From: Dehalococcoidales bacterium
GTDB taxonomy: Bacteria; Chloroflexota; Dehalococcoidia; Dehalococcoidales; CSSed11-197
Length of the DNA stretch: 37,821 nt
Assembly: GCA_028717385.1 (NCBI GenBank)
Contig: JAQUNW010000011.1
Span: 1 to 37,821, forward strand
Direction: 5' to 3'
Shown here: piece by piece, positions 1,404 to 6,813 of the stretch
Numbering within the stretch: the stretch's first letter is position 1
Layout of the letters: each line of letters starts with the position of its first letter
The notes under the pieces: model-generated
The model's input: only the letters and a program-made list of their open reading frames with translations
What the model was told of the DNA's origin: nothing
Database searches by the model: none
Translations under genes and position numbers: made by a program

Positions 1404-1413
1404 TAGCGGATAC

Positions 1414-1485
1414 GCCCCTGTAGCTCAGAGGATAGAGCACCGGCCTCCGGAGCCGGTTGCGAGAGTTCGAGTCTCTCCAGGGGCG
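1414..1485 (+). tRNA. tRNA-Arg (anticodon CCG)
   Basis: A complete cloverleaf can be folded by eye. Acceptor GCCCCTG (1414-1420) pairs with CAGGGGC (1478-1484), with discriminator G1485. The D-arm is GCTC/GAGC, the anticodon arm is CCGGC-CTCCGGA-GCCGG with anticodon CCG, and the T-arm is GAGAG-TTCGAGT-CTCTC. The variable loop is short (4 nt) and the CCA end is not encoded. It decodes CGG. Confidence 0.95.
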
Positions 1486-1520
1486 GTGCTTATTAAAAAA
1501 CAAATAGCGGGAGGCTCATT

Positions 1521-2090
1521 ATAGTTACCAAACATAATATTATTGGAATCCGGTGGCACGGTCGGGGTGGCCAAGGGGCGGTAACTTCAGCCGAACTTAT
1601 AGCGAGAGCAGCCATCGAAACCGGTGGATATGCCCAGGCATTCCCAGCATTCGGGCCAGAAAGGCGCGGAGCGCCGGTTCTTGCCTTTGATCGAATTAGT
1701 TCCGGCCCGATACGTAGCCGTGCCGAAGTTAACGATCCGAATATTGTCGTTGTTCTCGATCCCCGCCTGATGGACGCGGTAAACGTAACAGCAGGTATGG
1801 AACACAATGGATTGATTATAGTCAACACCAGGCTTAATCCCGATGAAATCAGCGCCCGTTATGATAACCGATTCCGGGTAGCTACAGTAGATGCTAATAC
1901 CATTGCCAGAGAGGTTCTGGGGGTTCCTATTGTCAATACAACCATGATGGGAGCACTTATAAAAGCCAGCGGCATATTAAAACCCGAAGATCTGGTTGAG
2001 CCTCTTAAAGACCGTTTTGGCCGTCTGGCAGAAAAGAATATTAACGCCATGAACCGGGCATTTAAAGAAACCATGATAAAGGAGCAGTAG
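1521..2090 (+). CDS. porG: 2-oxoacid:ferredoxin oxidoreductase, gamma subunit (non-canonical start)
   Basis: The frame encodes a full-length gamma subunit of about 189 aa with the family N-terminus HGRGGQGAVT near residue 15, followed by AFPAFGPERRGAP. In four-subunit pyruvate/2-oxoacid:ferredoxin oxidoreductases this domain helps bind CoA. Notably, the frame has no ATG, GTG or TTG ahead of these conserved residues: the first ATG, at 1770, would remove about 83 residues. An in-frame stop at 1494 limits the N-terminus. The best start is ATA at 1521, 6 nt after GGGAGG (1509-1514); ATT at 1518 (3 nt spacing) and GTT at 1524 are alternatives. It lies 35 nt after tRNA-Arg(CCG) and is the first gene of the operon. 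The product identity is firm; the exact start is not. Confidence 0.85.
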   Translation: MVTKHNIIGIRWHGRGGQGAVTSAELIARAAIETGGYAQAFPAFGPERRGAPVLAFDRISSGPIRSRAEVNDPNIVVVLDPRLMDAVNVTAGMEHNGLIIVNTRLNPDEISARYDNRFRVATVDANTIAREVLGVPIVNTTMMGALIKASGILKPEDLVEPLKDRFGRLAEKNINAMNRAFKETMIKEQ

Positions 2091-2091
2091 A

Positions 2092-2385
2092 TTGGCTAAA
2101 CCAGACAACGAACTTACCTGGCAAGACATTGAAATAGGGGCTATAGTCACGACCCCAGGCAATGCCAGCCAGTATCGCACTGGCGACTGGCGTTCCCAGC
2201 GGCCAGAGTACATATTTGATCGATGTATCAAATGTGGAGTATGTGCCATTTATTGCCCCGAAGGCTGCATAAATCAAAACAAGGAAGGCTTTTTTGAGGC
2301 TGATATGTTCTATTGTAAAGGGTGCGGCATCTGCGCCACTGAATGCCCCGTATATGTAATTAGTATGACAGAGGAGGTTGAATAA
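2092..2385 (+). CDS. porD: 2-oxoacid:ferredoxin oxidoreductase, delta (ferredoxin-like) subunit
   Basis: A 97-aa ferredoxin-like protein with two classical [4Fe-4S] motifs: C45, C48, C51, C55 and C75, C78, C81, C85. In four-subunit enzymes the delta subunit carries electrons from the TPP site towards ferredoxin. Translation starts at TTG 2092, supported by AAAGGAG a few bases upstream at the end of porG; there is no ATG at that position. Its stop codon overlaps the ATG of porA (TAATG), a sign of translational coupling. Gene order gamma-delta-alpha-beta matches the well-known four-subunit arrangement. Confidence 0.95.
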   Translation: MAKPDNELTWQDIEIGAIVTTPGNASQYRTGDWRSQRPEYIFDRCIKCGVCAIYCPEGCINQNKEGFFEADMFYCKGCGICATECPVYVISMTEEVE

Positions 2386-3560
2386 TGGCTAAAAGAGTCG
2401 GTATTGAAACCTCCATAGCAATCAGCGAAGTAGCCGCTGCTTGCGATGTAGACGTGGTAGCCGCATATCCGATTACACCACAAACTCACATCGTGGAACA
2501 TCTGGCCGACCTGGTTGCAAATGGCGAGCTTGACGCAGAATATATTCCCGTTGAATCAGAGCACTCTGCCATGAGTGCGTGTCTGGGCTCAGCTGCATCA
2601 GGAGCCAGAACTTTTACAGCTTCGGCAGGGCAGGGTCTCGAGCTAATGCATGAAGTTCTATTTGTAGCCAGCGCGATGAGGCTGCCAGTAGTTATGGCGG
2701 TTACCAACCGCGCTGTTTCATCTCCTCTAAGTGTTTGGGGTGACCATTCAGACGTGATGGCTGCCCGAGATGTAGGATGGATTCAGTTATTTGTTGAAAA
2801 TGGACAGGAAGCCGTTGATAATATAATCTGCGCCTTCAGGATGGGCGAAGATCCCAACGTGTTACTTCCAGTGATGGTAAACCTTGATGGGTTCCATCTA
2901 TCTCATATGATAGAACCCATTATTATCCCTGAAAAAGAAGAAGTAAGTCGGTTTTTACCCCCAAACAACTACCCATTACCGCTTCATCCCGATAAGCCAG
3001 TAGCCATGGGGGACTTCGCGCCACCCTTCATCTTTACCGAGGCAAAATGGGCACAAGAAGTCAATCTAAAAAATTCATATGACACAATAATAAAAACCTG
3101 GCATGAATTCGGCCAGCAATTTGGCCGTTATTATCAGCCTGTTGAGCAATATCTTACAGATGAAGCTGACACCTTGCTGCTTACAATGGGGAGCTTCAGT
3201 GAAACTGCCATGACGGCTATTGACAGTCTGCGCGAACAAGGCCATAAGGTTGGCTTGGTGCGCATCAGATTATGGCGCCCGTTTCCTTTTGAGGAGCTAA
3301 GAAAGGCCGTTGGCGGCGTTAAAACCCTTATCGTTTTAGATAGGGCAATCTCAACCGGTGGCCCGGGGGGACCGGTTGCCAGTGAGGTTAAAGCAGCCCT
3401 TTACAACGAGCCGAAAAAGCCTGCAATTGTCAGTTTTGTTGGCGGCCTTGGTGGGCGTGATATCACCCGAGAAGGCTTTGAGACCATAATACTCCGCGGA
3501 CAAGAAATTGCAAGGAACGGAAGTCCAAATGAATATGAAATTTTCGGCGTGAGGAAATAA
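2385..3560 (+). CDS. porA: 2-oxoacid:ferredoxin oxidoreductase, alpha subunit (pyruvate-type)
   Basis: A 391-aa subunit with the pyrimidine-binding domain signature AYPITPQT (27-34), the conserved VESEHSAM segment and a C-terminal transketolase-like domain. It combines with the beta subunit to form the TPP active site that oxidatively decarboxylates pyruvate or another 2-oxoacid to acyl-CoA, reducing ferredoxin; the reaction can run in reverse for CO2 fixation. The start ATG overlaps the porD stop, with GAGGAGG upstream. Length is normal. Overall similarity feels closest to pyruvate enzymes, but the substrate (pyruvate, 2-oxoglutarate or branched 2-oxoacids) cannot be fixed by eye. Confidence 0.93.
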   Translation: MAKRVGIETSIAISEVAAACDVDVVAAYPITPQTHIVEHLADLVANGELDAEYIPVESEHSAMSACLGSAASGARTFTASAGQGLELMHEVLFVASAMRLPVVMAVTNRAVSSPLSVWGDHSDVMAARDVGWIQLFVENGQEAVDNIICAFRMGEDPNVLLPVMVNLDGFHLSHMIEPIIIPEKEEVSRFLPPNNYPLPLHPDKPVAMGDFAPPFIFTEAKWAQEVNLKNSYDTIIKTWHEFGQQFGRYYQPVEQYLTDEADTLLLTMGSFSETAMTAIDSLREQGHKVGLVRIRLWRPFPFEELRKAVGGVKTLIVLDRAISTGGPGGPVASEVKAALYNEPKKPAIVSFVGGLGGRDITREGFETIILRGQEIARNGSPNEYEIFGVRK

Positions 3561-4490
3561 ATGATAGGTCAAAGTGTATATGTCCCACGGTTGCTACCAG
3601 AAATTGAAAGCCTTGCCCCAGGTCACCGGGCTTGCATCGGTTGCGGTGAAGTGCTGGCCATCCGGCAGGCTTTTAAAGCTATCGGACGTAACGCAATAGT
3701 AGTTAATGCCACCGGCTGCATGGAGATTATCGCCAGCCAGCTACCATATACTTCATGGCGGTTACCATGGATACACACACTATTTGAGAATACAGCTGCA
3801 GTTGCATCAGGAGTAGAGGCTGGATTAAAAGTAATGGCACGCAAAGGCCGTTACAATCACCAGAATACTAAAGTAGTAGCCATAGCCGGTGACGGTGCAA
3901 CCGTTGATATTGGGCTTCAAGCTTTATCCGGAGCCCTGGAAAGAGGTCATGACTTTGTTTATATCTGCCTGGACAATGAAGGGTATATGAATACTGGTAT
4001 CCAGCGCTCTTCTGCCACGCCCTACGGAGCCACTACCACCACTTCTCCTGCTGGTAAAAAAAGCATTGGTCAATTCAGCTGGAAGAAAGACCTTCCAGGA
4101 ATAGCAGTTGCCCATCGTATTCCTTACGTAGCTACTGCCTGCCCCAGTTATCCGGTTGACCTGATTGAAAAAGTGAAGAAAGCAGTTGCCACAAAAGGGC
4201 CGTCTTACATCCATATCTTTTCGGGGTGCCCCACAGGATGGGGATGCGCTACCAATTTAACCATCAAGCTTGGACGACTGGCAGTAGAAACAGGCGTGTT
4301 TCCTTTATATGAAGTTGAGAACGGCAAATATACCATTACCTACAAACCAGAAAAGCTGCGCCCGCTCACCGATTACATGAAACCACAGCGGCGTTTCCGT
4401 CACTTGACCGAAGATACCATCAAACTGATCGAAAAGCGAGTCGCTGAGGAATATTACAAACTCTTGGAGAAAGACGAATGTCAGAAGTAA
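3561..4490 (+). CDS. porB: 2-oxoacid:ferredoxin oxidoreductase, beta subunit (TPP and 4Fe-4S binding)
   Basis: A 309-aa subunit carrying the TPP/Mg2+ motif GDGA (110-113) followed by DNE (138-140), and CIGCG (25-29), which supplies part of the [4Fe-4S] cluster ligands together with later cysteines such as those in SGCPTGWGC. The NEGYMNTGIQRS segment is typical of pyruvate-type beta subunits. It starts immediately after the porA stop with a GAGGAA ribosome binding site. Its 3' end overlaps the following NuoE-like gene by 13 nt, so the redox module downstream belongs to the same transcript. Confidence 0.94.
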   Translation: MIGQSVYVPRLLPEIESLAPGHRACIGCGEVLAIRQAFKAIGRNAIVVNATGCMEIIASQLPYTSWRLPWIHTLFENTAAVASGVEAGLKVMARKGRYNHQNTKVVAIAGDGATVDIGLQALSGALERGHDFVYICLDNEGYMNTGIQRSSATPYGATTTTSPAGKKSIGQFSWKKDLPGIAVAHRIPYVATACPSYPVDLIEKVKKAVATKGPSYIHIFSGCPTGWGCATNLTIKLGRLAVETGVFPLYEVENGKYTITYKPEKLRPLTDYMKPQRRFRHLTEDTIKLIEKRVAEEYYKLLEKDECQK

Positions 4491-4945
4491 GTGTTAAAGA
4501 GGAGATCTTGGGGGATATTCTTGACAGATATAACCGAGACCGCGGACAACTCATTTCTATACTGCAGGACATACAGACTGAATACAATTATTTGCCCCGA
4601 GAAGCTATAAATTTTGTCAGCAGTGAACTTGGTATTCCTCTGAGTCAGGTTTACAGTGTTGCCACATTCTTCAAAGCATTCTCGCTTAAACCCAGAGGCC
4701 GTCATACCGTACATGTTTGTATGGGAACTGCTTGTCACGTCAGAGGTGCTACACAAATACTTGAGCAAATGGGTAATGAAATGAACGTAGGTTGTGGAGG
4801 TACCACCAAAGATGGCAAGTTTACTCTTGAAAGTGTTAACTGTGTTGGTGCATGTGCCCTTGGGCCGGTGGTTGTGGTCGACGGAGAGTATGCTGGTCAG
4901 ATGACGGTTAATAAGATAAAACCGCTACTGGAGAAATATGATTAA
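4478..4945 (+). CDS. NuoE/HndA-like [2Fe-2S] thioredoxin-fold subunit
   Basis: A 155-aa protein of the 24-kDa complex I subunit family. The four [2Fe-2S] ligands are C81, C86, C122 and C126 (CMGTAC and CVGAC), and the N-terminal helical region (LPREAINFVSSELGIP) is typical. In NADH-linked hydrogenases and complex I this subunit docks on the NuoF-like flavoprotein. A GGAG sequence precedes the ATG inside the end of porB. It forms one unit with the next two genes and presumably provides electron transfer between NAD(H) and the oxidoreductase. Regulation would be that of the operon. Confidence 0.92.
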   Translation: MSEVSVKEEILGDILDRYNRDRGQLISILQDIQTEYNYLPREAINFVSSELGIPLSQVYSVATFFKAFSLKPRGRHTVHVCMGTACHVRGATQILEQMGNEMNVGCGGTTKDGKFTLESVNCVGACALGPVVVVDGEYAGQMTVNKIKPLLEKYD

Positions 4946-4947
4946 CC

Positions 4948-6813
4948 ATGAGTAGAATAGTCAGTAAGTTAACCTCACTAAATGAACTTGAAAAAACGCG
5001 ATCGCTTATTGTTGCTGAACGTCCAAAGGCATCTACTATTTCCGTATGCTGTGGTACCGGTTGCCAGGCTTTTGGTGGGCAAAAAGTAGCAAAAGCCTTT
5101 AGGGATGCGATTGAATCGCACGGCCTGAAAGATCGTGCGATTGTTAAAACGACTGGTTGCCATGGTTTCTGCGAAAGAGGGCTGTTAGTTGTAATCAGGC
5201 CTCAAAACATCCTGTACCAGCATGTCCGGCCTGAGGATGTAGAAGAAATCGTCAGTGAAACTATCATGAAAGGCAAGGTGATCGAAAGATTACTTTACAT
5301 AACTTATGACAACGGTAATAAAATCGTTGCTGAAGAAGACGTGCCTTTCTACAAAAAGCAAATGAGGTTGGTATTTGGAGCCAACGGATACATAGATCCA
5401 ACCGAAATCGATGATTACATTGCCATAGGCGGTTATTCCGCTCTTGCCAAAGTTCTTTCTTCAATGAATCCCGAGCAGGTGATAGAAGAAATAGCAGCTG
5501 CCGGTCTTCGCGGTAGGGGAGGGGGCGGTTTCTTAACAGCTACCAAGTGGAAAAGCACGAAAGAAGCCCACGGCGAACCTAAATATGTTATCTGTAACTG
5601 TGATGAAGGCGACCCTGGAGCTTTTATGGACAGAAGCCTGATGGAAGGTAATCCACATAATATCCTGGAGGGTATGATAATCGGTGCTTACGCTGCCGGT
5701 TCCAGCATCGGTTTTATATATATACGTAATGAATATCCCCTGGCAGTTAAAAACGCTGAGATCGCCATTCGCCAGGCAGAAGAATACGGTTTACTGGGAG
5801 ATAATATTCTTGGTTCAGGCTTCAGTTTTAAGGTAAGCATTAACCGTGGAGGAGGTGCTTTTGTCTGCGGTGAATCAACCGCCCTCATGGCATCCATTGA
5901 GGGCAAGGTCGGAGAACCGCGCGCCAAATATGTACACACGTCTGAAAAGGGGTTGTATGATTGCCCAACAGTCCTTAACAACGTCGAGACCTGGGCTAAC
6001 GTTCCGCTGATAATCAATCGCGGTTCCGCATGGTACTCTTCGATTGGTACTGAAAACAGCAAGGGTACCAAGATCTTCTCCCTGGTTGGCAAAATAAATA
6101 ATACCGGCCTCGTTGAGGTTCCTATGGGTATTTCGCTCAGAGAAATTATATATGAGATTGGCGGAGGAATACCGGATAATAAAAAGTTTAAAGCAGTTCT
6201 CACCGGAGGCCCGTCAGGGGGCTGTATACCGGAGAGCCTGCTCGATCTGCCAGTTGACTTTGATGAGCTTACCAGAGTGGGCTCGATGATGGGATCAGGC
6301 GCCATGATCGTCATGGATGAAGACAACTGCATGGTAGACATTGCCCGTTATTTTCTCAAGTTTCTTGAAGAAGAATCCTGCGGCAAATGTGTTCCCTGCA
6401 GAGAAGGTCTGGACCGGATGAGGCAAATATTGGATGACATTAGTGAAGGAGAAGGCAAAGAATCGCACCTCGCACTGCTCGAAGAGATGTCAGCGGCAAT
6501 CCAGAATGGCTCATTATGTGGGCTGGGGCAAACAGCGCCCAACCCGGTTTTGACCACTCTTAAGTATTTTCGTGAAGAATATCTTGCGCATATCGTCGAT
6601 AAAACATGCCCTGCGGGCGTCTGCAAATCACTTGTCAGCTATAACATTGTGGATGAAAACTGTACGGCTTGCAGGTTGTGCGTGAAGGCATGTCCGGCTG
6701 AAGCTATTGAATTTATCGGCAAAAAGATTCCGGTCGTTCTTCATCAAGACAAATGCACGAAATGCGGCGCATGCATGAAAGCATGCAAGTTCAATGCAGT
6801 AGAAATAAGATAG
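4948..6813 (+). CDS. NuoF/HndC-like NADH-binding flavoprotein with extra ferredoxin domains
   Basis: A 621-aa multidomain flavoprotein. An N-terminal thioredoxin-like [2Fe-2S] domain has C34/C35, C39, C71 and C75. The NuoF core follows, with GLRGRGGGGF (186-195), CNCDEGDPGAF for FMN/NADH binding, and the [4Fe-4S] motif ESCGKCVPC near residue 476. Two C-terminal [4Fe-4S] motifs (CTACRLCVKAC and CTKCGACMKAC) extend from about 567 to 621. This architecture is that of HndC/HydB subunits of NAD(P)-linked or electron-bifurcating [FeFe]-hydrogenases, yet no hydrogenase catalytic subunit is present here. The likely role is NAD(H) oxidation or reduction coupled to ferredoxin and the upstream oxidoreductase; coupling is inferred from gene order. 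Confidence 0.92.
   Translation: MSRIVSKLTSLNELEKTRSLIVAERPKASTISVCCGTGCQAFGGQKVAKAFRDAIESHGLKDRAIVKTTGCHGFCERGLLVVIRPQNILYQHVRPEDVEEIVSETIMKGKVIERLLYITYDNGNKIVAEEDVPFYKKQMRLVFGANGYIDPTEIDDYIAIGGYSALAKVLSSMNPEQVIEEIAAAGLRGRGGGGFLTATKWKSTKEAHGEPKYVICNCDEGDPGAFMDRSLMEGNPHNILEGMIIGAYAAGSSIGFIYIRNEYPLAVKNAEIAIRQAEEYGLLGDNILGSGFSFKVSINRGGGAFVCGESTALMASIEGKVGEPRAKYVHTSEKGLYDCPTVLNNVETWANVPLIINRGSAWYSSIGTENSKGTKIFSLVGKINNTGLVEVPMGISLREIIYEIGGGIPDNKKFKAVLTGGPSGGCIPESLLDLPVDFDELTRVGSMMGSGAMIVMDEDNCMVDIARYFLKFLEEESCGKCVPCREGLDRMRQILDDISEGEGKESHLALLEEMSAAIQNGSLCGLGQTAPNPVLTTLKYFREEYLAHIVDKTCPAGVCKSLVSYNIVDENCTACRLCVKACPAEAIEFIGKKIPVVLHQDKCTKCGACMKACKFNAVEIR

Follow-up and report, generated by a model that had tools for sequence, protein, structure and literature searches.

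Translation of porG, the gene for the gamma subunit of pyruvate:ferredoxin oxidoreductase, in an uncultured Dehalococcoidales bacterium very likely starts, judging from the nucleotide context and its conservation, at ATA, a codon usually shunned for initiation, at position 1521 of the window, i.e., the whole stretch of 37,821 nucleotides that was analysed (contig 11 of 71 in a draft genome of 1.37 Mb). This start is of a known kind, in which a non-canonical codon is accompanied by a strong Shine-Dalgarno (SD) sequence, and it represents a new and unusually old example: as the orthologues indicate, the AUH start (AUA, AUC or AUU) is a long-maintained trait of this gene and not a sequencing error. 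In addition, porG is one of a small set of non-canonical-start genes in this genome.

The 5' end of porG in the window

The features of the region, with the evidence for each of them, are the following.

1413-1486 (+): tRNA-Arg, anticodon CCG, with no encoded CCA, ending 34 nt before the start codon (ARAGORN)
1494-1496 (+): in-frame stop TAA, upstream bound of the open frame (sequence)
1509-1514 (+): Shine-Dalgarno GGGAGG, 6 nt before the ATA (sequence and genus orthologues)
1521-1523 (+): putative start codon ATA, the sole well SD-placed start-like codon
1521-2090 (+): porG/porC, pyruvate:ferredoxin oxidoreductase gamma subunit, 189 aa
1557-1586 (+): conserved motif HGRGGQGAVT, 5' of the first ATG (sequence and alignment)
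1770-1772 (+): first canonical in-frame codon, ATG, an internal Met rather than a start
2092-2385 (+): porD, delta subunit (ferredoxin), TTG start (TIGR02179, 92.9 bits, cut-off 60.05)
2385-3560 (+): porA, alpha subunit, ATG start (NF040682, E 8e-140)
3561-4490 (+): porB, beta subunit, ATG start (NF008819, 408.3 bits, cut-off 405)
4478-4945 (+): NuoE-like subunit (NF005722, 145.1 bits, cut-off 141)
4948-6813 (+): NuoF-like subunit with extra ferredoxin-type domains (TIGR01959, E 1.6e-138, under its cut-off)

The gamma-subunit gene lies in an operon with those of the delta, alpha and beta subunits (porD, porA and porB, at 2092, 2385 and 3561). In profile searches its product matches PF01558 (E 2.7e-39, 135.6 bits, cut-off 27.4) and TIGR02175 (199.9 bits, cut-off 81.1), with a profile match spanning residues 8-185, and its nearest solved structure is chain E of PDB 9bt4 (E 1.2e-50). 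From the TAA at 1494-1496, the frame reads AAA ACA AAT AGC GGG AGG CTC ATT ATA GTT ACC AAA CAT AAT ATT ATT and continues after the second ATT of this final pair with GGA ATC CGG TGG CAC GGT CGG GGT GGC CAA GGG; as the earlier note had stated, there is no in-frame ATG, GTG or TTG between that stop and the ATG at 1770, and the conserved N-terminus HGRGGQGAVT is indeed encoded in this frame, from 1557. The same note had estimated that an annotation starting at 1770 would cost about 83 residues, and exactly 83 codons are lost when counted from 1521: the Pfam POR domain, whose profile positions 1-172 are covered by the full-length protein, is cut to positions 71-172, and the TIGR02175 score falls to 73.9 bits, under the cut-off.

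ATA 1521 or ATT 1518, with GTT 1524 as a further possibility, had been put forward as the start, and ATA 1521 is the best placed of them. Counted after the last G of GGGAGG, ATT 1518 lies at 3 nt, ATA 1521 at 6 nt and GTT 1524 at 9 nt. The relatives retrieved by name from a wider contig set are Dehalococcoidales or other Dehalococcoidia (Chloroflexota), the nearest being JAQUQL010000002.1 with 88% protein identity. Six members of the genus have the gene, and the alignment with orthologous operons that had been proposed as a check brings back the same SD, spacing and ATA: GGAGG-N6-ATA-GTT-AC(C/T)-AAA is kept in five of the six (L001-L005), the sixth and more distant one (L031) has GGGGGTGAAATT ATA, and ATA stands at the putative start position in all of them. 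ATT 1518 is unlikely because it is so close to the SD and because its position is taken by ACT or GCC in two genus members.

Start codons of porG across the order

A search of 156 genomes of the order recovered the gene in 127, and its start context was read in 125 loci. The scripted best calls were ATG (35 loci), TTG (28), GTG (25), ATA (20), ATC (9) and ATT (8), four of which were later adjusted by eye (L015, L019, L027 and L111); about 37 of the 125 loci, some of them ambiguous, are called AUA, AUC or AUU, and the remainder TTG, GTG or AUG. All of ATG, GTG, TTG, CTG, ATA, ATC and ATT occur as porG starts in the order, and since many relatives use TTG, GTG or AUG, an AUH codon is not essential to function. 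From the tRNA end or the in-frame stop to the motif, 24 of the 125 loci contain no ATG, GTG or TTG at all, and these loci fall in nine families (f1, f2, f8, f9, f14, f20, f26, f38 and f39). The leader of family f2 reads TGGAGGTGA-AAT-ATT (L066, L070 and L072), with an in-frame TGA, one codon before the ATT, that overlaps the extended SD, and therefore no upstream codon can serve; in genus g51, the GGAGG leaders are followed by ATC (ATT once). The Dehalococcoides-like genus g9 has GGGAGG-ACTACCACC-ATA-GAC-ATG, where an ATG stands two codons past the ATA, and its three loci are ambiguous because the residue numbers given in the literature (K166 of CbdbB16, a gamma subunit detected in the proteome of Dehalococcoides mccartyi CBDB1; PMC7918482) fit the ATG, the SD spacing of 9 nt for the ATA vs 15 nt for the ATG favouring the ATA. 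The called start lies 13-16 codons from GGQG in nearly all loci, and the tRNA-to-start distance is random modulo 3.

The same procedure, applied to the same genomes, found no AUH start lacking a canonical one in 124 porA, 125 porD, 62 porB and 14 nuoE loci (the porB and nuoE sets being partial, due to motif and contig limits), and of 79 porG loci in a wider contig set only two lack a canonical codon, both from Dehalococcoidales. As for porD, it starts with TTG in 62 of the 125 order loci, i.e., in about half of the genomes, and therefore a tendency toward weak starts is shared by porG and porD, the operon's first two genes. On a tree of porG+porD+porA, parsimony gives at least eight changes between the canonical and the non-canonical state, and at least 31 changes when seven states are distinguished, with about five from AUH to AUH and about 1.5 from AUH to AUG; the midpoint root, which is not an inferred root, falls among AUA lineages. 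The median SD-anti-SD energy is -10.5 kcal/mol for AUH starts vs -6.5 kcal/mol for AUG starts (rank test, p 1.6e-10, a value that ignores the relatedness of the rows), a correlation that is partly built in because in some loci the start call itself took the SD into account. This pattern fits either a constant modest initiation with compensation or a selection for a weak start.

In 116 of the 126 order loci a same-strand tRNA-Arg(CCG) gene precedes porG (the exceptions are mostly contig ends), at a distance of 18-175 nt with a median of 27. This gap is of 35 nt or less in 80 of the 116 loci, hardly enough to accommodate a promoter. Given this proximity, the por mRNA probably belongs to the tRNA precursor, from which it would be freed by tRNA 3' processing. 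The pair is conserved through the order and occurs also in other Dehalococcoidia, constituting an old tRNA-protein gene pair, and all 21 tRNA-linked porG loci of the wider set belong to Chloroflexota. A similar arrangement is that of E. coli tufB, which sits directly behind a tRNA gene but, unlike porG, starts canonically.

Initiation machinery and other apparent non-canonical starts of the genome

In the initiator tRNA (C28:744-818), the GGG/CCC anticodon stem and a C1xA72 mismatch are both present, the 16S 3' end (GGATCACCTCCTTT) is normal and complementary to the porG SD, and IF3 can be aligned over its length with bacterial IF3s of solved structure. Since all three look ordinary, a loss of start fidelity caused by an altered machinery was rejected. 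A general use of AUH starts was rejected as well, given that a scan of 758 gene models, covering 1.26 of the 1.37 Mb, left only about six genes with no canonical start near the conserved N-terminus, a count made by inspection, with selenocysteine cases and overlong frames set aside, and which misses genes having a spurious upstream canonical codon. Besides porG, this set comprises ruvB (ATC), purM (ATT), nadB (ACG), an ABC-transporter gene (CTG) and a radical-SAM-like frame (ATT, weak).

The gene that the earlier note had invoked as an analogy, infC, turns out to be a fitting one, in a sense that the infC of this very genome also apparently starts with AUA (C41:1017, L154). An in-frame GTG lies three codons upstream of it here and is absent in L136, where the ATA stays, and in almost every order locus that could be read AUA is the apparent infC start (L127-L156). 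According to tallies made by eye, ruvB (C33:9836 in this genome; L318-L338) has an apparent ATA or ATC start in 15 of the 20 order loci that could be read, and purM (C2:102394; L317 and L339-L358) an apparent ATT, ATC or ATA in 13 of 21, with an in-frame TAG immediately 5' of the ATT in L343 and L351. The apparent start of nadB (C2 near 23723, minus strand; L359-L364), also tallied by eye, is ACG in all six genus members, five of which have an SD 6-8 nt upstream, and in L361 an in-frame TAA adjoins the ACG; elsewhere in the order nadB has ATT in a few families and mostly ATG in others.

Two further observations were made during the scan. The ABC-transporter gene, which encodes an ATP-binding protein (C15, minus strand, near 5253), shows GGAGG-N6-CTG and 35 codons with no canonical start, although a nearby ATG in another frame means that a frameshift could also explain it. 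In-frame TGA codons precede conserved formate-dehydrogenase-like, SelD-like and peroxiredoxin-like sequences (C7:21905, C2:30197 and C5:25869); a tRNA-Sec gene is present, and these TGA-containing frames are likely selenoproteins.

Probable initiation at ATA, its alternatives and its known counterparts

Against the initiator anticodon CAU, an AUA codon forms two standard pairs and a third-base mismatch. Weak pairs at the third base are disfavoured by IF3 (PMC10158994), and AUA and AUU starts with an extended, strong SD yield about 10-30% of the AUG output in S. aureus (PMC13009471). The reading that we consider probable is that ATA 1521 acts as an SD-compensated fMet start that gives a low, IF3-sensitive initiation of the pyruvate synthase operon. 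The ordinary initiator fMet-tRNA would read the codon as fMet, the perfect and well-spaced SD would bring the AUA into the P site and offset its weak third-base pairing with the anticodon, and IF3 would discriminate against that pairing; the outcome would be a low and IF3-sensitive rate at the leading gene of an operon that is probably transcribed as a tRNA-Arg-porGDAB precursor, from which its mRNA is then released. By analogy, the output of porG is likely reduced, and we infer that its initiation would be sensitive to IF3; that the ATA start throttles a central-metabolism operon, as had been suggested from the sequence, is plausible and agrees with reporter measurements on other AUA starts. 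A regulatory benefit could possibly lie in the coupling of pyruvate formation to the translational capacity.

The main rival is drift with SD compensation, which also takes ATA as the start but assigns no regulation to it: start codon and SD would drift together under stabilising selection for a constant modest rate, and AUH would be tolerated with a perfect SD. We give this explanation substantial weight, somewhat short of an even chance. The co-variation of start class and SD strength, the changes among seven start codons within the order and the often weak starts of porD speak for it, whereas the excess of AUH-to-AUH over AUH-to-AUG changes is weak evidence that AUG is avoided, and infC, the classic IF3-controlled gene, carries the same codon class. 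It is improbable that the weak start serves to protect the maturation of the tRNA-Arg, on the premise that ribosomes loading quickly at an SD some 20 nt past the tRNA would interfere with the processing of its 3' end. The frequent and close tRNA-Arg(CCG) neighbour agrees with this idea, as does the wider set, where tRNA-linked loci are all from Chloroflexota and the lack of a canonical start is confined to Dehalococcoidales, but ATG is the start at many porG loci whose gaps are just as short, and infC, ruvB, purM and nadB have non-canonical starts while located away from the tRNA-Arg. A causation of the start variation by the tRNA is likewise not supported, as the other AUH genes sit elsewhere in the genome.

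The remaining alternatives deny that ATA is the start or that it is genuine. Initiation at another non-standard codon (e.g., GTT 1524, ATT 1518 or ATT 1539/1542) has a small probability: PDB homologues such as 9bt4 chain E begin a few residues further in and the GTT is conserved in five genus members, but, apart from the position and poor conservation of ATT 1518, the codons at 1539/1542 have no SD, and the position of the ATA stays AUH across families while the codon that follows it varies widely. A base error that destroyed an ATG or GTG was a worry in a draft assembly of 71 contigs; it is dispelled, to the point of being extremely improbable, by the same ATA context in five separate genus genomes and by AUH codons in many more genera. 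Equally negligible is a frameshift from an upstream out-of-frame start, as no conserved start of this type was seen in the loci compared and the GGAGG-to-AUH spacing is near-fixed, or an A-to-I editing of AUA to AUI, as relatives have AUC and AUU at the same site, which are not editable in that way.

The SD-compensated, IF3-sensitive ATA start has several known counterparts. The gene for IF3, infC, starts with AUU in E. coli and with AUA in S. aureus, and the AUH class is known for IF3 autoregulation. The AUH start and the strong SD are common to infC and porG, and the infC start is discriminated by IF3; unlike infC, porG encodes no initiation factor, and therefore no autoregulatory loop is expected at it. 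The S. aureus genes ccpN (AUA), cvfC1 (AUU) and citZ (AUA) combine, as porG does, a non-canonical start with a strong, well-spaced SD (PMC13009471), and citZ belongs to central metabolism too. Unlike these three, porG follows a tRNA gene and is the leading gene of an operon for a multisubunit enzyme, and across an entire order its start codon switches between AUA, AUC and AUU. The translation of E. coli pcnB is limited by its AUU start (Binns and Masters 2002, via PMC13009471); it is another gene from another lineage, whereas in the present genome the trait extends to several genes. With no canonical start, a conserved non-canonical codon and a strong, well-spaced SD, porG has the sequence features of the infC/pcnB/ccpN kind. 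No report of non-canonical starts in Dehalococcoides was found in the open-access literature, which makes for a weak absence.

To our knowledge, very few bacterial genes are recognised as having a conserved non-canonical start. In this case, such a start of porG is kept order-wide with exchange among AUA, AUC and AUU, and a handful of other housekeeping genes of the genome share the trait. In practical terms, porG, ruvB, purM and nadB of these genomes will come out truncated or misplaced wherever a gene caller accepts only ATG, GTG and TTG. A speculative extension, which we regard as rather unlikely, is that the AUH and ACG genes behind strong SDs (infC, porG, ruvB and purM, plus nadB with ACG in the genus) form an old initiation-codon regulon that follows the supply of free IF3 or ribosomes; if true, it would link pyruvate, purine and NAD synthesis to the translational capacity. 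The order-wide conservation of these starts provides a natural setting, beyond the model bacteria, in which to test IF3-dependent start selection.
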